From: Lewinella sp. IMCC34183
Lineage (GTDB): Bacteria; Bacteroidota; Bacteroidia; Chitinophagales; Saprospiraceae
Length of the DNA: 64,000 bases
Assembly: GCF_003390915.1 (NCBI RefSeq)
Contig: NZ_QMEM01000001.1
Coordinates: forward strand, 1 to 64,000
Direction: 5' to 3'
In this document: in pieces, positions 8,059-39,874 of the stretch
Position numbering within the stretch: the first letter of the stretch is position 1
How the letters are laid out: each line of letters starts with the position of its first letter
Notes under the pieces: model-generated
The model's database searches: none
What the model saw: the letters and a program-made list of their open reading frames with translations, nothing else
What the model was told of the DNA's origin: nothing
Made by a program: the position numbers and the translations under genes

Positions 8059-8907
8059 CTATCGACTAGCCGTAAGCACCCCATACCGGATAGCACCACT
8101 AGCAAAGCCCTTCCGCATATACTTCATCGCCCAGGCTCCCATAATGGTCCCCTTGCCGGCGCGGACCAGCCCTGGCCAGTTGCGCGGATCCAGTCCGCTG
8201 CGGATCACCGCGCCCCAGAAGGGCTCCACGGAGTCGGACCAGTCGTCGGTGCGGAGATTGGTCAGCCCGGCCTCGGCGGCCGCCGCCTCGAGCTCGGAGA
8301 CGCTGACCAGGGGCGGGAGGTGGTAAAGGTCGCAGATCTGCTGCAGGGTATACTGGTCGGAGGGGGAGAGGTAGGGGGGCTCGTCGCGGTGGCACCAGGT
8401 GGCCATCAGCAATTTCCCGCCGGGGCGCAGCAGACTCCGAAACAGCCGGAAGAGTTGCACCTTATCTTCCATATGCTCGGCGGACTCCATGCTCCAGATC
8501 AGGTCGAAGCGGCCGGTCACCTCGGGGTCGAGGTCGTAAACGTTCTTGGCGATCAGGTTCAGGCGGTCAGACAGGCCCGCCTCGCGGTTATAGCCGTTGC
8601 CGCGGTGAGCCTGTACGGGACTCAGCGTGACGCCGATACCCTCCGCGTCGGGGTAGCGCAGGGCCAGGTACCGGCTGCTGCCCCCCACGCCGCAGCCGGC
8701 GTCGAGAAAGCGCTGGACATCCGATGTGGGGGCTACGCCCCACTCCAATAGTGCGTCGATCATGTCGAGTTGGGCCTGCTGGTGGGAGACTTTCCGCTTG
8801 CCGTCGGGGCCGTAGTAGCCGTGGTGCATCTGTTCACCCCAGGTGTCCAGCCACAGCGGGGTGGACCGGTCGTAAAAGTCCCGAATGCGCTCGTTGAGTT
8901 CTTCCAT
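8059..8907 (-). CDS. SAM methyltransferase resembling gamma-tocopherol methyltransferase (VTE4)
   Basis: A 282-aa class I methyltransferase. SAM motif I is LDAGCGVGGS (69-78), followed by SRYLA. FDLIWSMESAEHMEDK and LMATWCHRDEP are close to the matching stretches of plant and cyanobacterial gamma-tocopherol methyltransferases and related sterol or terpenoid C-methyltransferases. Only 3 bp separate it from the upstream VTE3-like gene, so the two form an operon. The likely role is methylating a prenylated aromatic ring. The exact substrate cannot be read from sequence, and other small-molecule methyltransferases share these motifs. Confidence 0.75.
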   Translation of the reverse strand: MEELNERIRDFYDRSTPLWLDTWGEQMHHGYYGPDGKRKVSHQQAQLDMIDALLEWGVAPTSDVQRFLDAGCGVGGSSRYLALRYPDAEGIGVTLSPVQAHRGNGYNREAGLSDRLNLIAKNVYDLDPEVTGRFDLIWSMESAEHMEDKVQLFRLFRSLLRPGGKLLMATWCHRDEPPYLSPSDQYTLQQICDLYHLPPLVSVSELEAAAAEAGLTNLRTDDWSDSVEPFWGAVIRSGLDPRNWPGLVRAGKGTIMGAWAMKYMRKGFASGAIRYGVLTASR

Positions 8908-8910
8908 AGG

Positions 8911-9837
8911 TCAGCGGCGGCGGCGCAGGATGGCCCGTCCGATGAAGAAGACGGCGACGGCACCGAGGCCGTACAGTACGGCCTTCTGCTCCTTGTTGAG
9001 GGGTTGTTGCTCGCCTTCCACGCCGCGTAGCGGAGCGGTGACGTGGGCCAGCAGCGCCATCGGAATGAACAGGAAGCCGGCGGTAGAACCCACCAGCACG
9101 CGGCCGGTGAGCAGGAGGTTACGGCCGAGCCAGCCGCCCTCGGGTTCGTGGGCGGTAAGGGCGCGCGAGCGGCGCGGACCGGCCTTGGCACTTGGACCGG
9201 GGGCGGGCTTGGTGCCCACGATCGCGATACCGTAGCGTTCGTTCGCCTGCCACTGCGGCCGTACGTATACCCAGTCGATATCAGTGAAGCCGGCAGTTTG
9301 GAAGTAAAGATGGTAGTCGTTTTCCGGCGGAAACAGCATCCAGGCGTTTGCGATGAACTTGCTGACCGGATTGACGGGTTCGATGGGGCCGATCATGAGT
9401 GCCTGACCGCCCTCCTTGACCACGCGGTAGGCCTCGAAGATCCCCTGCTGGGGGTCGGGCCAGTACTCGATGGAGCCGGCGGAAACATACCGGTCGAAGG
9501 TATCGTCGGGGAAGGGCAGGTGCTCGGCGTCACCGAGGCGGAAGCGGCAGTTTTCCAGTTCCGGTTTGACCATGGCGCGCTCCATTTGCTGGGGGCTCTG
9601 GTCGAGACAGATGACGTTGCGGGCGGGTACCCGCTGCACGATGCCCTGGGTAGTGAACCCGGTACCCGAACCTACATCCAGCACCTTTAGCTTGTCGGGC
9701 TCGGACCAGTCCACGATGTCGAGGGCCTTCTCCCGCATGGGCTCGGTCCAGAACAGGGGGTTAACCAGCTTATCGTAAAAGTTGGACAGGTAGCGGTAAA
9801 ACCAGAAGGCTTCCCGCTTGTGCTGCATTAGTCTCAT
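8911..9837 (-). CDS. Membrane-tethered methyltransferase resembling plant MPBQ/MSBQ methyltransferase (VTE3)
   Basis: A 308-aa protein. The methyltransferase half has FYDKLVNPLFWTEPMR, motif I VLDVGSGTGFTT (52-63), DQSPQQM (79-85) and FDRYVSAGSIEYWPDP (114-129). The last stretch is nearly identical to plant VTE3, which methylates quinol precursors of tocopherol and plastoquinone. A basic linker and two hydrophobic segments (about 235-260 and 285-303) follow, ending RRRR, which suggests a C-terminal membrane anchor. ATG 9837-9835 was chosen because it precedes the conserved N-terminus; ATG 9828-9826 is an alternative. It is first gene of the pair with the VTE4-like gene. Confidence 0.8.
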   Translation of the reverse strand: MRLMQHKREAFWFYRYLSNFYDKLVNPLFWTEPMREKALDIVDWSEPDKLKVLDVGSGTGFTTQGIVQRVPARNVICLDQSPQQMERAMVKPELENCRFRLGDAEHLPFPDDTFDRYVSAGSIEYWPDPQQGIFEAYRVVKEGGQALMIGPIEPVNPVSKFIANAWMLFPPENDYHLYFQTAGFTDIDWVYVRPQWQANERYGIAIVGTKPAPGPSAKAGPRRSRALTAHEPEGGWLGRNLLLTGRVLVGSTAGFLFIPMALLAHVTAPLRGVEGEQQPLNKEQKAVLYGLGAVAVFFIGRAILRRRR

Positions 9838-9971
9838 GGGCGAATCAGTTGCTCCATGTAATACGCCAGCCGGCCCTTTGTTCGCGCCAATCTTTCGCCA
9901 TCGGAACAACACGGCCTCCGCACCTGCGTTCCCGCCATTAACTCTACCTTGGCGTTTAATCCACCCCGACC

Positions 9972-12050
9972 TTGGCAAACGAATTAGTCAAACGCGATTC
10001 TTCCTGGCTGGAATTCAACGCGCGGGTACTGCAGGAAGCTGCCGACCCCCGCGTCCCGTTATATGAACGGATCCGGTTTCTGGCCATCTACAGCTCCAAC
10101 CTGGACGAATTTTACCGCGTACGGGTATCGTCGCTGCGTCAGTTCAAGAAGCTGCCGAAGAACGAGCGGCGCCGCCTGTTCACCTTCCGGCCGAAGCGGG
10201 AGCTGAAGAACATCCGCCGCACCGTGTACCGGCAGCAGGAGGAGTTCGGGCGCATCTTCCGCGATGAGATCCTGCCCCAGCTGGTAGACGAGAACATCCA
10301 CCTGATCCACTCCGACCAGATGGACGATGCCCAGCGCGCCTTTGCCGCCGAGCACTTCGACCACAACATCAAGCCCCACCTGGAGCTCCACTGGCTCCCC
10401 ACCGAGGACGAGCAGGAAGCCGGTCATGAACTCCCCTTCCTGGACGACGGCCAGCTCTGCCTCGCCGTGAGCCTCAACGAGCCCGAAGCCGAGGAAACCG
10501 GCGAGGTGGCCCTGGTGCCGCTGCCCGTCGACCGCACGGGGCGTTTTTTGGTACTGCCCAGTCCGGAGGACGACCCGGAAGGCTACTACGTGATCTTCAC
10601 CGACAGCGTGGTGCGCGCCAACCTGGGCCGGTGGATGGACCGACGGGTCGACTTCGGCTACAGTTTCAAGCTCAGCCGCGACGCGGAACTCTACATCGAC
10701 AATGAGTTCGACGGCGACCTCCTCCGCAAGATCGAGCACAGCCTGGCCACGCGCGACACCGGCCTGCCTACCCGCTTCCTCTACGACGGCGACATGCCCA
10801 GTTGGATGCTCAACCGCCTCAAGAGGGCCCTGCACTTGTCGAAGTACGATATGATCCCCGGGGCGCGCTACCACAACTTCAACGACTTCTTCACCTTCCC
10901 GCAGCCCCCCGGCCGGGAGTACCTGGCGTACGAACCGCTGCCCCCGCTGCCGCACCTGAAGCTGGAAAACGCCACCAGCATCATGGACGTGATCCAGGCG
11001 ACCGACGTGCTGCTGAGCTTTCCGTACCAGAAGTACGATTACGTACCGCAGCTGATCCGCGAGGCCGCCGATCACCCGGAAGTGCGCAAGATCCGCATTA
11101 CGCTGTACCGGGTGGCCAAGAGGTCGCAGGTCGTCAGCAACCTGCTCTACGCCCTGCAGCAGGGTAAGCAGGTGGAGGCTTTCGTGGAGGCCAAGGCCCG
11201 CTTCGATGAGGCCAGCAACCTTTACTGGGGTAAGGAAATGACCGAGGCAGGTGCCTACGTGCGGTACAGCTATCCGGCCGTCAAGGTCCACACTAAACTG
11301 CTACACATCGAGCGGCGTACCGAGGAGGGTGACACGATCCACTACAGCTACATCGGCACGGGCAACTTTAACGAGAAAACGGCCAAACTTTACACGGACC
11401 ACGCCCTGCTGACCGCGCGCCCCGCCCTGGGTAAGGACGTCGAGCGGGTCTTCGACCTGCTACGGGGCAGGCTCATCCTGCCCCGCTGCAAGCACCTGCT
11501 GGTCGCCCCCTTCAATATGGAGGAGGAATTTTTGGACCTGATCGACCACGAGATCGAGATCGCTCGCGAGGGAGGCCACGCCTACATTTTCCTGAAAATG
11601 AACAGCCTCGAGGAAGAGACCATGATCGCGAAGATCCGGGAGGCCGCGCGGGCCGGGGTACAGGTACGGCTGATCGTGCGCGGCATCTGCCGGCTGGTCC
11701 CCGGACCAAAGGAGCACATCAAGATCATCAGCATCATCGACCGCTTTCTGGAGCACGCCCGCATTTTCATCTTCGGCAATAACGGAGCCGAAAAGGTGTA
11801 CATGGGCTCGGCCGACTGGATGAACCGCAACCTGTACCGGCGGGTGGAGGTGGTGACGCCGATCTACGACCACCTCATCAAGCTAGAGCTGCGCCGCATC
11901 ATGGATATGCAGTGGCGCGATAACCAGCGCGCGCGGCACATTTCCGAGCGGGAGCTTAATCGCTACCGAAAAGCGGGGCCCGATGCCGGTACCTTCCGGG
12001 CACAGCAGGATATCTACGACTATTTCCGCCGCCAACTCGACGGGGCATGA
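9972..12050 (+). CDS. ppk: Polyphosphate kinase 1
   Basis: A 692-aa Ppk1, the usual length, making polyphosphate from ATP. The N-terminal domain starts RDSSWLEFNARVLQEA. Catalytic His is H440 in PAVKVHTKLLHI, followed by YIGTGNFNEKTAKLYTDHALL, and both PLD-like halves are present. The start is TTG 9972, because the conserved N-terminus begins there and no ATG is near; a TACCTTGG box lies 19 nt upstream (9945-9952). Its TGA overlaps the next ATG. It is the first gene of a four-gene operon to 14591. Confidence 0.96.
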   Translation: MANELVKRDSSWLEFNARVLQEAADPRVPLYERIRFLAIYSSNLDEFYRVRVSSLRQFKKLPKNERRRLFTFRPKRELKNIRRTVYRQQEEFGRIFRDEILPQLVDENIHLIHSDQMDDAQRAFAAEHFDHNIKPHLELHWLPTEDEQEAGHELPFLDDGQLCLAVSLNEPEAEETGEVALVPLPVDRTGRFLVLPSPEDDPEGYYVIFTDSVVRANLGRWMDRRVDFGYSFKLSRDAELYIDNEFDGDLLRKIEHSLATRDTGLPTRFLYDGDMPSWMLNRLKRALHLSKYDMIPGARYHNFNDFFTFPQPPGREYLAYEPLPPLPHLKLENATSIMDVIQATDVLLSFPYQKYDYVPQLIREAADHPEVRKIRITLYRVAKRSQVVSNLLYALQQGKQVEAFVEAKARFDEASNLYWGKEMTEAGAYVRYSYPAVKVHTKLLHIERRTEEGDTIHYSYIGTGNFNEKTAKLYTDHALLTARPALGKDVERVFDLLRGRLILPRCKHLLVAPFNMEEEFLDLIDHEIEIAREGGHAYIFLKMNSLEEETMIAKIREAARAGVQVRLIVRGICRLVPGPKEHIKIISIIDRFLEHARIFIFGNNGAEKVYMGSADWMNRNLYRRVEVVTPIYDHLIKLELRRIMDMQWRDNQRARHISERELNRYRKAGPDAGTFRAQQDIYDYFRRQLDGA

Positions 12051-12625
12051 ACTTCCTGGCGCACCTGACGCTCTCCCACTTTTCGGCCGACCTCCAGGTC
12101 GGTAACTTCGTCGGCGACTTTATCCGGGGCCGGGAACTGGCGCAACTGCCACCGGGCATCCGCCGGGGCGTATTGATGCACCGCGCCATTGACGCGCTCA
12201 CCGATGCCGATCCCGACGTGCGGGCCCTGAACGCCCGCATCCGCGAACGCCACGGACGGTACGCGCCGGTGGTCAGTGACGTGGCCTTCGACCACTTTCT
12301 GTACCTCAATTGGGATCGGTTCGGTCCCGCCCCCTTCGATGAGTTTACGGCGCAGGTATATCGCCGGCTCGACGCGGCCCGCGACGACATGCCAATGCGT
12401 ATCTGCGGTCATATCGACGCGATCGTGCGGCACGAGTGGCTGGGTATGTACGCGACGCAAAACGGCATGCGCGACGTCTTCCGCCGTATGACGCCGCGGC
12501 TCAGCCGGCCGGAGCTGGTCCGGGATGCGCACCTTTCCCTGGTTCATCTCACCGAACCCATCAACCAGGCCCTGCTGCGACTGTTCCCCCGGTTACAACA
12601 GCTAGCCGAATCCTACCGTGAGTGA
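12047..12625 (+). CDS. ACP phosphodiesterase-like protein (AcpH/DUF479 family)
   Basis: A 192-aa protein starting MNFLAHLTLS with NFVGDFIRG, the pattern of acyl-carrier-protein phosphodiesterase AcpH, which removes 4'-phosphopantetheine from ACP. RGVLMHRAID and SDVAFDHFL supply the His and Asp residues of this HD-like family. The start overlaps the ppk stop (ATGA) and the end overlaps the next gene by 8 bp, so translation is probably coupled. Enzyme activity is inferred from the family only. Confidence 0.8.
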   Translation: MNFLAHLTLSHFSADLQVGNFVGDFIRGRELAQLPPGIRRGVLMHRAIDALTDADPDVRALNARIRERHGRYAPVVSDVAFDHFLYLNWDRFGPAPFDEFTAQVYRRLDAARDDMPMRICGHIDAIVRHEWLGMYATQNGMRDVFRRMTPRLSRPELVRDAHLSLVHLTEPINQALLRLFPRLQQLAESYRE

Positions 12626-13082
12626 CTCCTCTTATGCAATAGATCTACGCCTTGAGCGGTTTTCCTCCTACCTCACCGTGAAGGTGAGCGGCAACCAGCG
12701 TATGGTCCGCGACGAGATCCGGAAAAAGTGGCTCGTCCTCCAGCCGGAAGAATTTGTCCGGCAGCTGTTGCTGCACTTCCTGATCCGGGATATGCGCTAC
12801 AACCGCAACCGCATTACCGTCGAACGCGGCGTGGCGGTGAACGGCGAACCGCGACGGACGGATATTCTGGTATTTGACCAGGATATGCGGCCGTTCCTGC
12901 TCATTGAGTGCAAGGCGCCCAAGGTGCCGCTTACAACGGATGTGTTCCGGCAGGCGGCAAATTACAACGGACCCTTGCGCGTACCGTACCTTATGATCTC
13001 CAACGGCCGCGAATCCTACGTAGCCGCCATCGACTACACCGCGGAGGACTACCGCCTGATGAGGCACGTCCCCGAATGGTGA
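12618..13082 (+). CDS. Stand-alone HsdR N-terminal-like PD-(D/E)XK nuclease domain protein
   Basis: A 154-aa protein matching the N-terminal nuclease domain of type I restriction HsdR subunits without the helicase. The catalytic pattern is intact: D82 in RRTDILVF, and E97 and K99 in LLIECKAP. No hsdM or hsdS is nearby, so it is unlikely to be a restriction system; such short proteins are common in Bacteroidota beside housekeeping genes. GTG 12618 overlaps the previous gene by 8 bp. The biological role is unknown. Confidence 0.75.
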   Translation: MSDSSYAIDLRLERFSSYLTVKVSGNQRMVRDEIRKKWLVLQPEEFVRQLLLHFLIRDMRYNRNRITVERGVAVNGEPRRTDILVFDQDMRPFLLIECKAPKVPLTTDVFRQAANYNGPLRVPYLMISNGRESYVAAIDYTAEDYRLMRHVPEW

Positions 13083-13094
13083 TATCCTCAGCCC

Positions 13095-14591
13095 GTGCCC
13101 AAACTGCTCCACGTCGACGATTTGTCTTTGTCCCTGGCGGACGGTACTCCGGTCATTGACGGGTTCGGCTTCGAGGTGGCGGCCGGCGAATCGGTGGGGC
13201 TGATCGGTCCTTCCGGCTGTGGCAAAAGCCTCACCACCCATGCGCTGTTAGGCCTGCTGCCCGAGGCCGTACGCCTCCGGCGTGGTACGGCGGATTTTCA
13301 GTGCCGCGGGGGAGAAACGGTGGACCTGCTGTCCTGCTCCGAGCGGCGGCGTGCATTACTGCGCGGCCGTGAGATCGCCCTTATCTTCCAGGAACCCCAG
13401 AGCGCGTTGAACCCCGTACTTTCCTGTGGCCGGCAGCTCCTGGAGACCATCCGGGAAGTCGGGGGGGAAGAGGGGCCCGCGGAGGAAACGGCCCAACAAC
13501 TTTTGGAACAAGTAGGGCTGGCGCCCCTCGGCCGGCGCGTACTGGCGGCCCTGCCGGGCGAATTGAGCGGGGGGCAGCTGCAACGGCTGCTCATCGCGAT
13601 GGCCCTTGCGGGGCGTCCCCGGCTGCTCATCGCCGATGAACCCACGACCTCCCTCGACGCGCTTACGGAACGGGAAATTATCGTCCTGCTGGACCGTCTG
13701 CGGCGTGAGCACGCCATGGGTATGCTCTTCATCGCCCACGACCCCCGCCTCATCCGCCGCGTTACGGACCGGCAGGTGCAGGTCCCCGGTACCGCTGTTG
13801 CGAGCTATCCAGTGGCCACGGCGGTCGCGGAGCGGAGGGAGCTGGAGGACACGTCGGAGCGGACGCTCTCGGTCGAGGGGCTGCGCATCGGGTACGGGGA
13901 GGCCCGGAAACCCGCCATACGCGATTGTTCGTTTCACATACGGTCCGGCGAATGGGTAGGACTCATCGGCCCCAGCGGCTGCGGCAAGAGCACGCTCGCC
14001 GGCTGGCTGGTAGGGCTGCAGGGCGCCCAGTCCGGCCGGTTGCGGGCGGCGGAACTGGAATTGCCGGCAACCCTTGGGGGGCGGCAGATCCGGCAGGCTA
14101 CCGGTGCACAGGTAATCTTCCAGGATGTGGCCGGCAGCCTTAACCCCCGCATGACCATCGGCCGTGCGATCAGCGAAGTGCTCCGCCCCGGCGGAGGCGA
14201 CGACGTACGGACCCTGCTCCGTCAGGTCGACCTGCCGCCGGACCGGACCATGCCCAAGTATCCTAACCAGCTCAGTGGCGGGCAGCGTCAGCGGGTCGCG
14301 ATCGCGCGGGCCCTGGCCGCTGCCCCCCGCCTGCTTATCTGTGACGAAGCCTTCTCCGGTCTCGATCTTCCGCTGCGCATGGAGGTGCTCGCGCTTTTGC
14401 GGCGGGTCTGCGCCGCGCGGAAGATCAGCGTACTGCTCATCACCCATGATCTGGAAACGGCACTGGAATGTACGGATACCGTGCTGCTGATGGAGGAGGG
14501 AGAGATCGTGGAGCGCGGCCGGACCTCGGAAGTATTCGGTGCTCCCACGAGCGAACTGGGTCGGCGCTTCGCCGCGGCCCGCAACTGGTAA
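13095..14591 (+). CDS. Double-ATPase ABC transporter protein (DppD-DppF-like fusion)
   Basis: A 498-aa protein with two ABC ATPase domains. The first has Walker A GPSGCGKS (38-45), signature LSGGQ (near 158) and Walker B LLIADEPTTSLD. The second has Walker A GPSGCGKS (292-299), signature LSGGQRQR and LLICDEAFSGLD. The pattern is that of peptide or nickel uptake ATPases fused head to tail. GTG 13095 follows the previous stop by 12 bp. No permease or binding protein is in the window, so substrate and partners are unknown. Confidence 0.85.
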   Translation: MPKLLHVDDLSLSLADGTPVIDGFGFEVAAGESVGLIGPSGCGKSLTTHALLGLLPEAVRLRRGTADFQCRGGETVDLLSCSERRRALLRGREIALIFQEPQSALNPVLSCGRQLLETIREVGGEEGPAEETAQQLLEQVGLAPLGRRVLAALPGELSGGQLQRLLIAMALAGRPRLLIADEPTTSLDALTEREIIVLLDRLRREHAMGMLFIAHDPRLIRRVTDRQVQVPGTAVASYPVATAVAERRELEDTSERTLSVEGLRIGYGEARKPAIRDCSFHIRSGEWVGLIGPSGCGKSTLAGWLVGLQGAQSGRLRAAELELPATLGGRQIRQATGAQVIFQDVAGSLNPRMTIGRAISEVLRPGGGDDVRTLLRQVDLPPDRTMPKYPNQLSGGQRQRVAIARALAAAPRLLICDEAFSGLDLPLRMEVLALLRRVCAARKISVLLITHDLETALECTDTVLLMEEGEIVERGRTSEVFGAPTSELGRRFAAARNW

Positions 14592-14627
14592 AGAACTAAA
14601 GCACCGGGCGGGTACGTTAAGACGGCT

Positions 14628-15230
14628 ATGAAGCGATCGTCCCTACTCCTCTTCCTGTTGGGCCCGTGCTGGCTGTTGGCGCAATCCTACGACGCCGCCC
14701 TGGGCATCCGGGTAGGAACCGAATGGGGGGCTACGGCCCAACTCCGGGTTCCGCAGATCCACAAGAACTTCGTGCTGGAAGGTATCCTGCTCAGTTCCAT
14801 AGGCAAGGACGAGGGCACGCTGACCCTGCTGGGCAAGCAGCACCAGCCGCTGCTGAGCCGGCGGCTCAACCTCTTTTACGGGGCGGGACTGCACGCCGGC
14901 TGGAGCAACGAGGTCGACGGGGATACCGGGCAGACCTTCAACGGTCCGAAAGGGATAACCGGGATCGTCGGCCTGGAGGCGACGTTTGCCCGCATCAACA
15001 TCAGCTACGACTTCAAGCCCGCGCTCAACGTCGCCGGTGGGGCCTCGGTGCTCGACACCCACACCGCCGTGAGCGTGCGCTACGTCATCGGCAAGCGGTA
15101 CAGCATCTGGGACCGCAGCAAGGAAAAGGAGATCCGCAAGCGGCGGCGCGTCCGGGACCGCGAGGGGCGGCGTGAGGAACGGCGGCGTTCGGACAAGCGG
15201 TGGTTCCAATTCTGGAAGGCCGGCGAGTAG
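14628..15230 (+). CDS. Secreted outer-membrane-type protein with polybasic C-terminus
   Basis: A 200-aa protein with a signal peptide ending near LLAQS (residue 19). It has alternating beta-strand-like sequence to about residue 160, then a strongly basic tail rich in Arg, Lys and Glu (about 163-190) ending FQFWKAGE. No family was recognised. The start ATG at 14628 is 7 nt after a TACGTTAA box. It is separated from the ABC gene by 36 bp and from the reductase by 73 bp, so operon membership is unclear. Confidence 0.7.
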   Translation: MKRSSLLLFLLGPCWLLAQSYDAALGIRVGTEWGATAQLRVPQIHKNFVLEGILLSSIGKDEGTLTLLGKQHQPLLSRRLNLFYGAGLHAGWSNEVDGDTGQTFNGPKGITGIVGLEATFARINISYDFKPALNVAGGASVLDTHTAVSVRYVIGKRYSIWDRSKEKEIRKRRRVRDREGRREERRRSDKRWFQFWKAGE

Positions 15231-15303
15231 CGCCGACCGCCGGCGGCCGCCCCGCTTGAACACCCTCCCCCCGATGGGGTTTGGCAGTAGACAAACCGCC
15301 CCA

Positions 15304-16479
15304 ATGCCCCAACCAGAGTACGATGTAGTCATCATCGGGGCCGGCCCCGCCGGCTCCACCACCGCCCGTTTCACCGCCGCTGCCGGCCTGCGCACGCTGC
15401 TCGTCGACAAACGGCAGGAATTGGGGGCCCCCATCCAGTGCTCCGGTGCCATCAGCCGCCACGCCCTGGAAGACGTGGGCATCGTTCCGGATGACGAGTT
15501 TATCCACGAGGCCATTTACGGCTTCGCCATCTACGACCAAACCGGCGAGCGCCACGTCCACGATTACCGTTCGCTCAAGCCCGACGAATACGGCAGCGGC
15601 CCCGGCCGAAAGCCGCTCGGCTACGTAGTCGACCGCCGCCGCTTCGATCGCTACCTGCTTACCCAGGCCGAACGAGCGGGCGCGGACACCTGGCTCAAAA
15701 CCGAAGGGCGGGGGTACACCCCGACCGACGATGGCGGCTGTACCGTGCACCTGCGGCGCTACAACCAGGATATCGACGTGCGCGCCCGGCTGCTGGTGGG
15801 TGCCGACGGGCTCCAGTCGCAGGTAGGCAAGTGGGCTGGCCTGCAGACCCACATCAAGATCACCGAGCTGGCGGGTTGTCTCCAGTTTATCGTCGACCGC
15901 GTGGAGACCGAGGGCCTGCTGGAGATCGTCACCGGCCACGAGTGGGCCCCCGGGGGCTACGCCTGGGTGTTCCCGAAGGGGCACGGCTACGCGGAGATCG
16001 GCCTCGGTGTCATCGCCACGATGACCGATAAGCCGGCCCGCTGGCACCTCGATAAATTCATGACGCAGAGCTTCTTTCGTGAGCGCTTTGCCGATTGCCG
16101 CATCCTCGAGGTGCAGGGCGGGGGCGTACCCCTCGCGGCCCCATTGCGGACCCAGTACGCCGACAACCTGATTCTGGTCGGCGACGCCGCCCGCCACGTC
16201 AATCCCATCACCGGCGGCGGACTGCATACGGCCGTAGCGGGGGGGAAGATCGCCGCCGGCTTCATCACCGGCCACCTCGAAGACGGAATGCCGCTGCGCG
16301 ACGGTGCCCTCCGAGCCTACCAGGACGTATGGCTGGACGCACTGGGCGACAAGATGTGGAAGCTCTACGGGATAAAGACCGACATCTTTCACAACATGAA
16401 CATCCGCGAGCGCGACGAGCAGCTCTACGCCACCATGGCCGACTACTTTAGCCCGACCTCAGAATTCAAAAAAATATGA
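15304..16479 (+). CDS. Geranylgeranyl reductase family FAD-dependent oxidoreductase
   Basis: A 391-aa flavoprotein with the FAD motif VVIIGAGPAGSTTA (8-21), a central ADGLQSQVGKW and late GDAARHVNPITGGGLHTA, the pattern of the ChlP/digeranylgeranyl-glycerophospholipid reductase family. These enzymes saturate isoprenoid chains on lipids, chlorophyll or quinones. The start was set at ATG 15304, because the FAD fold begins there; an upstream in-frame extension lacks similarity. It ends in an ATGA overlap with a ferredoxin gene, a likely electron donor. Prenyl-quinone side chains are a plausible substrate. Confidence 0.85.
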   Translation: MPQPEYDVVIIGAGPAGSTTARFTAAAGLRTLLVDKRQELGAPIQCSGAISRHALEDVGIVPDDEFIHEAIYGFAIYDQTGERHVHDYRSLKPDEYGSGPGRKPLGYVVDRRRFDRYLLTQAERAGADTWLKTEGRGYTPTDDGGCTVHLRRYNQDIDVRARLLVGADGLQSQVGKWAGLQTHIKITELAGCLQFIVDRVETEGLLEIVTGHEWAPGGYAWVFPKGHGYAEIGLGVIATMTDKPARWHLDKFMTQSFFRERFADCRILEVQGGGVPLAAPLRTQYADNLILVGDAARHVNPITGGGLHTAVAGGKIAAGFITGHLEDGMPLRDGALRAYQDVWLDALGDKMWKLYGIKTDIFHNMNIRERDEQLYATMADYFSPTSEFKKI

Positions 16480-16712
16480 GCAAGCAACAGCCCGTATTAT
16501 TCAACATCGGCTGGAATGCCTGTATCAACTGCGGAGCGTGCGTAGCCATCTGCCCCCAGGAGGCGGGCTTCGTCAGTCCGTTCGACACCATAGCGGTCGA
16601 CCGGCCCTGCGACATCGCCTGCCTGTTGTGTGAGCAGATCTGCCCCGTCGATACCATTACCCACGTGCCGGCCCCGGCACCCGCTACGCAAAACGGTGCA
16701 GGCGTTCGATAA
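16476..16712 (+). CDS. Ferredoxin, two [4Fe-4S] motifs
   Basis: A 78-aa protein with C16, C19, C22 and C26 (CX2CX2CX3CP) and a second set C45, C49, C52 and C56 (CX3CX2CX3CP). The first spacing of the second set is one residue longer than usual. The start overlaps the reductase stop, so it is translationally coupled and probably supplies electrons to that enzyme. Its 3' end overlaps convergent threonine aldolase by 29 bp. Confidence 0.85.
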   Translation: MSKQQPVLFNIGWNACINCGACVAICPQEAGFVSPFDTIAVDRPCDIACLLCEQICPVDTITHVPAPAPATQNGAGVR

Positions 16713-39136: not shown

Positions 39137-39874
39137 ATGTCAGCCAGCGAAAAAGTAGTCAAACCTTACGGGGAAGGGGATTCCAAGAAGCAGGAAGTGG
39201 GGCGCATGTTCGATGCGATCGCCCCTACCTACGACCTCCTCAACCGCGGTACTTCCCTCGGGGTGGATACGCTGTGGCGCCGTAAACTGATCGCCCAGCT
39301 CGATCCCTCCGTTCACCGTCGCATCCTGGACGTCGCCACCGGTACCGCCGACGTGGCGATACAGACGGTGCGGCGCGCCAACGTCGACCACGTCACCGGA
39401 CTGGACCTCAGCGAGGGCATGCTGGCCTACGGACGCACGAAGGTGAAAGCCGCCGGGCTGGAGGACCGCATCACCCTGCAGCAGGGCGACAGCGAGAACC
39501 TGCCCTACGCGGATGAGACCTTTGATGCCGTGACCGTGGCGTTCGGAGTACGTAACTTCGAGAACCTTGAGCGTGGCCTCTCCGAGATGCGCCGCGTGCT
39601 CCGGCCCGGTGGCAAACTGGTGGTGCTGGAATTCAGTCGGATCCGGTACGCACCCGTACGTTGGGGCTTTAATCTGTACTTCGGCAAAATTATGCCGCTG
39701 ATCGGCCGTTTACAGAGTAAGGATCCGCGGGCCTATGCCTACCTCTTCGAGAGTGTACAGGCCTTCCCGAGCGGCGCGGATTTCGTAACGATCCTGGATC
39801 GGGTCGGCTATAACAACACTGAATGCCACGCACTTACTTTCGGAATCGCTTCCATCTATACCGCTACCCGCTGA
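39137..39874 (+). CDS. ubiE: Demethylmenaquinone methyltransferase (UbiE/MenG)
   Basis: A 245-aa methyltransferase acting in the last step of menaquinone synthesis. RMFDAIAPTYDLLNR and ILDVATGTADVAI (SAM motif), GLDLSEGML, AFGVRNFENLERGL and MRRVLRPGGKLVVLEFS are all standard for this family. The final 52 bp overlap the porT gene in another frame, an arrangement repeated across Bacteroidota. It is divergent from gyrA. Confidence 0.95.
   Translation: MSASEKVVKPYGEGDSKKQEVGRMFDAIAPTYDLLNRGTSLGVDTLWRRKLIAQLDPSVHRRILDVATGTADVAIQTVRRANVDHVTGLDLSEGMLAYGRTKVKAAGLEDRITLQQGDSENLPYADETFDAVTVAFGVRNFENLERGLSEMRRVLRPGGKLVVLEFSRIRYAPVRWGFNLYFGKIMPLIGRLQSKDPRAYAYLFESVQAFPSGADFVTILDRVGYNNTECHALTFGIASIYTATR

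Follow-up and report, generated by a model that had tools for sequence, protein, structure and literature searches.

The closest described counterparts of the genes reported here are the plastid tocopherol pathway of plants and algae (VTE1, VTE2, VTE3, VTE4, and a geranylgeranyl reductase [GGR]) and that of cyanobacteria, for which we take the Synechocystis genes to be slr1736 (homogentisate phytyltransferase [HPT]), slr0089 (gamma-tocopherol methyltransferase [gamma-TMT]), and sll0418 (MPBQ methyltransferase [MPBQ-MT]), together with VTE1 and ChlP. According to the abstract of one review, photosynthetic organisms are the sole makers of tocochromanols (PMC5745509). Here, we analyzed a 64,000-nucleotide stretch of DNA from Lewinella sp. 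IMCC34183 (the window; bases 1 to 64000 of contig NZ_QMEM01000001.1, or C34, from a 5.1-Mb genome that is 98% complete), which carries two adjacent methyltransferase genes resembling plant VTE3 and VTE4 and, about 5.5 kb away, a gene pair for a GGR family protein and a ferredoxin. These genes very probably belong to a conserved, selected, multigene pathway for a homogentisate-derived prenyl lipid in the Saprospirales. From the gene content, we further favor, with fair though not full confidence, the reading that this pathway makes tocochromanols and that its genes are dispersed in this genome, with two portions of the set lying in the window.

Like the cyanobacterial pathway, this gene set includes members of the HPT and gamma-TMT families, and a VTE4-type gene also lies near HPT in cyanobacteria (on the same strand and starting ≤4.5 kb away in 20 of 36 loci). 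It differs in that its first methyltransferase is of the plant VTE3 type, its reductase scores closer to archaeal models and comes with a ferredoxin of its own, its cyclase-like protein is distant, and its host genus, Neolewinella/Lewinella, is non-photosynthetic. With the plastid pathway, it shares a VTE3-type enzyme with a C-terminal tail (judged against a sequence that we take to be Arabidopsis VTE3), a VTE4-type enzyme, HPT, and HPPD, but it is organized as a bacterial operon and pairs an archaeal-like GGR with a ferredoxin. The methyl-plastoquinone (mPQ) pathway of Nitrospirota (MpqA to MpqE) is comparable in placing a benzoquinone-type prenyl lipid, here predicted from genes, in a non-phototroph; however, the VTE3-type protein scored 29.2 bits on the MpqE model (cut-off, 335), on which the UbiE protein of the window scored 205.9.

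An initial annotation of the window had proposed a tocopherol-like or saturated prenyl-quinone pathway and called for a genome search for HPPD, a homogentisate prenyltransferase, and VTE1. The first two and a relative of the third were present outside the window: an HPT (NF009525 equivalog, 306.3 bits; NCBI cut-off, 226), an HPPD (440 bits; cut-off, 277), and a tocopherol-cyclase-family protein (PF14249, 77.5 bits over the whole protein; cut-off, 26.6), referred to below as VTE1-like. This supports the proposed pathway, the product of which is a prediction, and the HPT would provide a prenyltransferase for a second quinone. HPT is one of five UbiA-family genes in the genome, alongside CtaB, an MqnP-like protein, a GGGP-transferase-like protein (L004), and EboC; no chlorophyll synthase and no MenA-type prenyltransferase is among the five. 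Across 14 named control genomes, HPT had seven matches, all below the cut-off, HPPD had eight, one of which passed, and PF14249 had a single match that did not pass. Similarly, when 395 Bacteroidota genomes were drawn evenly, only IMCC34183 and one congener passed the HPT cut-off, while 237 others gave weak matches of ≤71 bits, as other UbiA enzymes would.

To define the distribution of these genes, we compared 40 genomes, comprising IMCC34183, 20 congeners (21 in the genus), and 19 others from the family and order. HPT was found in all 21 genus genomes and in none of the 19 others (E ≤ 0.001). Orthologues of VTE3 (455 to 775 bits, own protein included) and VTE4 (411 to 658 bits, likewise) were also present in 21/21 genus genomes, with the 19 others reaching ≤45 and ≤67 bits, respectively; thus, within this set of genomes, the likeness to VTE3 and VTE4 that had been claimed is far above chance. 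The reductase orthologue occurred in 16 of the 21 (≥610 bits) and in none of the others (≤83 bits). Two genus genomes have irregular methyltransferase genes, namely, an in-frame TGA inside the VTE3 reading frame of G008 (L061) and a VTE4 in two pieces in G012 (L093), each due to assembly error or decay. Among mobile elements, HPT had no match in 72,556 plasmid records; VTE3 matched 242 plasmid records, none over 80% of the query and the best of them haloarchaeal, and its 17 pattern matches in viral contigs included no relatives.

In 12 of the 21 genus genomes, VTE3, VTE4, and HPT adjoin one another on a single strand; in the other nine, including IMCC34183, HPT lies apart, and in all nine, the reductase is 5.4 to 5.5 kb from VTE3. 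When the HPT alignment was run against 84,980 species genomes, it yielded 123 relatives, from which 80 loci were kept and grouped by us into 39 of Saprospirales type (33 titled so and six metagenome-assembled genomes [MAGs] assigned by likeness, their titles giving only Bacteroidia, Bacteroidetes, Bacteroidota, or bacterium), 36 from cyanobacteria, and five others. Counting genes on the HPT strand within 4.5 kb and at >100 bits, the 39 Saprospirales-type loci held the reductase, VTE3, and VTE4 in 14 cases, VTE3 and VTE4 in 14, the reductase and VTE4 in two, VTE4 at a contig start in one, and HPT alone in eight. VTE3, VTE4, and HPT are therefore together on one strand in 28 of the 39. The eight HPT-alone loci all come from the genus of the window (seven titled Neolewinella or Lewinella and one MAG that corresponds in contig position to G012). 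Judged by contig positions, 16 of the 39 loci belong to genomes already among the 21; the remaining 23 split 14, 6, 2, 1, and 0 over the same classes. One MAG (L163) has HPPD and a homogentisate-dioxygenase-like gene immediately upstream. Because the reductase fronts VTE3-VTE4-HPT in 14 of the 39 loci, and VTE4-HPT in two more, the initial annotation was correct in linking the methyltransferases to the reductase 5.5 kb away, and what the window shows is a reductase-VTE3-VTE4-HPT operon that has been broken up.

The identities of the two methyltransferases were assessed by alignment and by phylogeny. Over its full length, the VTE4-type protein is 39 to 44% identical to cyanobacterial proteins of the gamma-TMT type, some of which adjoin HPT, versus 29 to 31% for the MPBQ-MT type, and by identity, it is nearer the former (slr0089) than the latter (sll0418). 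In the VTE4 tree, the Saprospirales-type clade (99/99) and the MPBQ-MT (sll0418) type clade (100/100) are well supported, with the order of groups not fixed. The VTE3-type protein is 49% identical over 267 residues to the presumed Arabidopsis VTE3 and 28% identical over 103 residues to UbiE, and its hydrophobic C-terminal tail aligns with the tail of that Arabidopsis sequence, which is 46 to 55% identical to Saprospirales-type proteins and 31 to 46% identical to three haloarchaeal ones. VTE3 trees do not reject holding the Saprospirales together (p-AU of 0.2 and 0.143), with Arabidopsis inside or beside them. Neither enzyme was found to fall outside the VTE3 and VTE4 clades, so the original assignment stands as far as relative identity goes, while the trees leave the exact placements unsettled. 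A search of 146 cyanobacteria gave no orthologue of plant-type VTE3: 10 genomes matched at E ≤ 1e-15 with a best score of 70 bits, compared with at least 401 bits for Saprospirales-type orthologues. Searches of solved structures with the VTE3-type family (26 matching sequences) and the VTE4-type family (64 matching sequences, 60 of them listed) returned other methyltransferases, with none named as a tocopherol or MPBQ methyltransferase among the matches listed.

The reductase exceeds the cut-off of TIGR02032 (216.5 bits; cut-off, 158.8) and carries a GGR_cat domain, but it fails the ChlP/BchP cut-offs of TIGR02023 (120.4 bits; 343.3) and TIGR02028 (60.7 bits; 505.3). Its sequence PGGYAWVFP fits the PxxYxWxFP motif given in a passage on the Methanosarcina acetivorans GGR, an enzyme that needs a ferredoxin encoded in its own locus (PMC10821996). 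Here, too, reductase and ferredoxin share a locus: the stop codon of the former overlaps the ATG of the latter (ATGA, 16476 to 16479), and a ferredoxin follows the reductase in 16/16 operon loci and 16/16 genus loci. The ferredoxin is likely to be the electron donor of the reductase. The Methanosarcina enzyme, as described in that passage (PMC10821996), reduces an archaeal ether-lipid precursor, whereas the reductase studied here sits in a tocochromanol-type operon. The archaeal digeranylgeranylglycerophospholipid reductase model scores 201.9 bits on the reductase (cut-off, 780), which is higher than the 60.7 bits for ChlP, and this, together with the GGGP-transferase-like UbiA protein in the genome, would fit a scenario in which the methyltransferases and reductase modify menaquinone, a carotenoid, or an archaeal-type ether lipid, with HPT next to them by coincidence. 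We consider this highly unlikely: HPT scores above its equivalog cut-off and is clustered with them in many genomes of Saprospirales type, and orthologues of VTE3, VTE4, and the reductase occur only with HPT in the 40 genomes searched.

A VTE1-like protein was found in all 18 HPT-bearing Saprospirales-type genomes tested and in 21/21 genus genomes. PF14249 also matched in all eight cyanobacteria and, partially, in a Solirubrobacterales MAG, but in none of four other Bacteroidota-type MAGs with HPT (L203, L204, L205, and L209). Profile comparison by hhalign aligned 15 VTE1-like sequences (three from relatives lacking HPT) with seven cyanobacterial VTE1 sequences over 291 columns (99.6%; E, 5.6e-24). 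The two sets share invariant FEGWY and FP, and an invariant EKDWG of the VTE1-like family stands where cyanobacteria have EKNW; a passage on tocopherol cyclases links a YxEKNWG motif with possible catalysis (PMC4963081). The VTE1-like profile had no match among solved structures. Distant cyclase relatives with a motif of this kind are also described in heterotrophs in that source (PMC4963081); the protein studied here differs from them in co-occurring, although not exclusively, with HPT, VTE3, and VTE4. Collectively, these comparisons suggest that the cyclase step is likely carried out by the VTE1-like protein.

If the VTE1-like protein were instead unrelated to the pathway, the product could be an uncyclized C20 di- or trimethyl-benzoquinone (plastoquinone-like, saturated or not) serving the cell as an antioxidant or as a further redox quinone. 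The presence of this protein in relatives without HPT, its distance from cyanobacterial VTE1, and the four HPT-bearing MAGs outside the Saprospirales that lack a PF14249 match would all fit such a product, and plastoquinone derivatives are reported from non-phototrophic Nitrospira in a passage of another study (PMC12324825). However, every HPT-bearing Saprospirales-type genome tested carries the VTE1-like protein. VTE4 enzymes of known pathways, moreover, act on a chromanol. We therefore regard the benzoquinone as possible but the less likely product.

In the HPT tree, the Saprospirales form a supported clade (96/96) beside a cyanobacterial clade (91/98, not flagged as supported) that holds one Solirubrobacterales MAG, and the HPTs of the four other MAGs lie outside (93/81); a very long outgroup makes the root unsure. 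The Flavilitoribacter HPT scores 364.2 bits on the equivalog model. HPT and VTE4 resemble cyanobacterial enzymes, and some members of the group live with algae, as might be expected if the genes were a functionless piece of algal or cyanobacterial DNA, either decayed or recently captured. Against this stand the occurrence of the genes in both cultured isolates and MAGs and in every genus genome, the support for the Saprospirales clade, and the substitution rates: for VTE3, VTE4, HPT, the reductase, and the cyclase-like gene, each compared with one congener (G013), dN was 0.087 to 0.175 and dS was 0.87 to 1.68. With dN far below dS, all five genes are under purifying selection, and a functionless fragment is scarcely credible.

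From gene presence, family assignment, operon conservation, co-occurrence, and purifying selection, we infer the following chemical steps, side-chain length, and cyclization. HPPD would convert 4-hydroxyphenylpyruvate to homogentisate, which HPT would join to a C20 prenyl diphosphate with loss of CO2, and the reductase and ferredoxin would saturate the side chain before or after this step. VTE3 would add a ring methyl to give a 2,3-dimethyl benzoquinol, the VTE1-like protein would close the chromanol ring, and VTE4 would add the last methyl to yield alpha-tocopherol; members without the reductase would make tocotrienols. The predicted product is a homogentisate-derived, prenylated, and methylated ring lipid, most probably a tocopherol or tocotrienol.

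Several points weigh against this assignment. Five genus genomes (G002, G003, G008, G010, and G016) lack a reductase orthologue and keep HPT, VTE3, and VTE4; G003 is 88% complete, G010 is 55% complete, and the other three are 98 to 100% complete. Two related Saprospirales-type operons (L152 and L166) contain the reductase, VTE4, and HPT, with no VTE3 within the stretch examined. The catalytic part of the VTE3-type protein is 48 to 49% identical over ~187 residues to two haloarchaeal plasmid proteins, which is as near as the plant enzyme. Furthermore, the plant comparisons use a sequence that we assume to be Arabidopsis VTE3, and the names gamma-TMT type and MPBQ-MT type rest on sequences that we take to be slr0089 and sll0418. 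Synechococcus elongatus, the sole cyanobacterium among the control genomes, fails the HPT cut-off and has no PF14249 match. Homogentisate-dioxygenase-like genes, all below the family cut-off, are present in 18 of the 21 genus genomes and 17 of the 19 others; they occur with or without HPT, which lends no support to the idea that HPPD is dedicated to tocopherol synthesis. As for cyclization, the best PF14249 stretches score 45 to 81 bits in Saprospirales-type proteins versus 301 to 543 bits in the eight cyanobacteria, and since the protein lies outside the cyanobacterial VTE1 score range, we class it as VTE1-like only. Its occurrence in 4 of the 19 relatives without HPT (210 to 321 bits) argues against its being specific, and it may act elsewhere, the tocopherol-cyclase-like proteins of heterotrophs being described as of unknown function in the passage cited above (PMC4963081).

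Coordinates of the genes discussed are collected in Table 1. Both methyltransferase open reading frames (ORFs) were confirmed, with the VTE3-type gene upstream of the VTE4-type gene and a 3-bp gap (8908 to 8910) between them, as first annotated. An alignment of 20 genus sequences places the VTE3-type start at a conserved ATG at ~9837 (MRLMQHK) rather than at the ORF opening at 9978. The ubiE gene reported at 39137 is real and belongs to a separate pathway.

Table 1. Genes of the predicted pathway and ubiE in IMCC34183; positions are those of the window unless a contig is named.
Gene product	Coordinates	Strand	Details
VTE4-type (gamma-tocopherol methyltransferase-like) C-methyltransferase	8059..8907	-	282 aa; ORF, identity, and genus distribution
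Plant VTE3-type (MPBQ methyltransferase-like) C-methyltransferase, C-terminal hydrophobic tail	8911..9837	-	308 aa
Geranylgeranyl reductase family protein, closer to archaeal models than to ChlP	15304..16479	+	391 aa; TIGR02032, GGR_cat domain
Small [4Fe-4S] ferredoxin	16476..16712	+	78 aa; Fer4, 8.4e-10
UbiE/MenG menaquinone methyltransferase (context only)	39137..39874	+	TIGR01934, 243.9 bits (cut-off, 158.35)
HPT	C34:358070-358927		Protein L003
HPPD	C44:211762-212826		
VTE1-like (tocopherol-cyclase-family) protein	C53, ~214.2-215.1 kb		

The other UbiA genes and the HPTs of other lineages show further features. The only menaquinone-type UbiA gene, L002 (C34:778757-779515), is MqnP-like (TIGR01475, 268 bits; cut-off, 180.8) and scores below the MqnP cut-offs, pointing to a putative futalosine route to menaquinone. 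The EboC-type gene (L015, 4959-7041, on C54; NF035940, 340 bits) has neighbors that presumably form an ebo cluster. In two of the non-Saprospirales MAGs (L203, 562-2174; L209, 387-1999), a 237-aa ORF containing a methyltransferase-like stretch overlaps HPT on its upstream side and, in L203, has no Pfam or NCBIfam match; a homogentisate-dioxygenase-like gene, recognized by its likeness to that of L163, lies nearby, and there is no cyclase-family match. These loci perhaps encode a separate homogentisate prenylquinone pathway. The Solirubrobacterales (Actinomycetota) MAG carries an HPT of 352 bits (L207, 35-892) and the partial tocopherol-cyclase-family match (L258); these may be genuine or may stem from cyanobacterial DNA binned in error.

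The VTE3-type protein also bears on the history of the plant enzyme. Its haloarchaeal relatives, encoded on plasmids of Halomontanus rarus and Natrinema versiforme, are alike in their catalytic domain but are 209 to 219 aa long and lack the C-terminal tail. On the Halomontanus plasmid (NZ_CP119799.1; L305, 2953-4645), the VTE3-like gene is divergent from a UbiA-family gene (NF009516, 228.8 bits; cut-off, 205), the product of which is not HPT (39.8 bits; cut-off, 226); the pair is possibly part of haloarchaeal quinone methylation. A passage of a review ascribes plant VTE3, which has no cyanobacterial orthologue, to archaea (PMC5159609). With no orthologue in the 146 cyanobacteria searched and a tail common to the plant and bacterial proteins and absent from these two haloarchaeal homologues, the source of plant VTE3 is reopened. 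The tail and the pathway context would favor a bacterial link, with transfer in either direction. The fuller proposal, which credits heterotrophic Saprospirales with true vitamin E and derives plant VTE3 from such a bacterium that already used it in a tocochromanol operon, is doubtful, the more so because the catalytic part of the window's protein is equally near to the haloarchaeal and plant enzymes.

We found no earlier report of this bacterial pathway in the literature on tocopherol or HPT and bacteria, which was covered in part and with few subscription papers. If the predicted pathway is correct, vitamin E would be a bacterial product independent of photosynthesis, made in marine heterotrophs, and the operon would offer a compact gene set for vitamin E production in microbes. 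It would also establish a contrast within one genus, in which reductase-bearing species make tocopherols and reductase-lacking species make tocotrienols. Finally, the VTE3-type protein is a bacterial homologue with a plant-like tail, found in a pathway context, and as such, it bears on the origin of plant VTE3.

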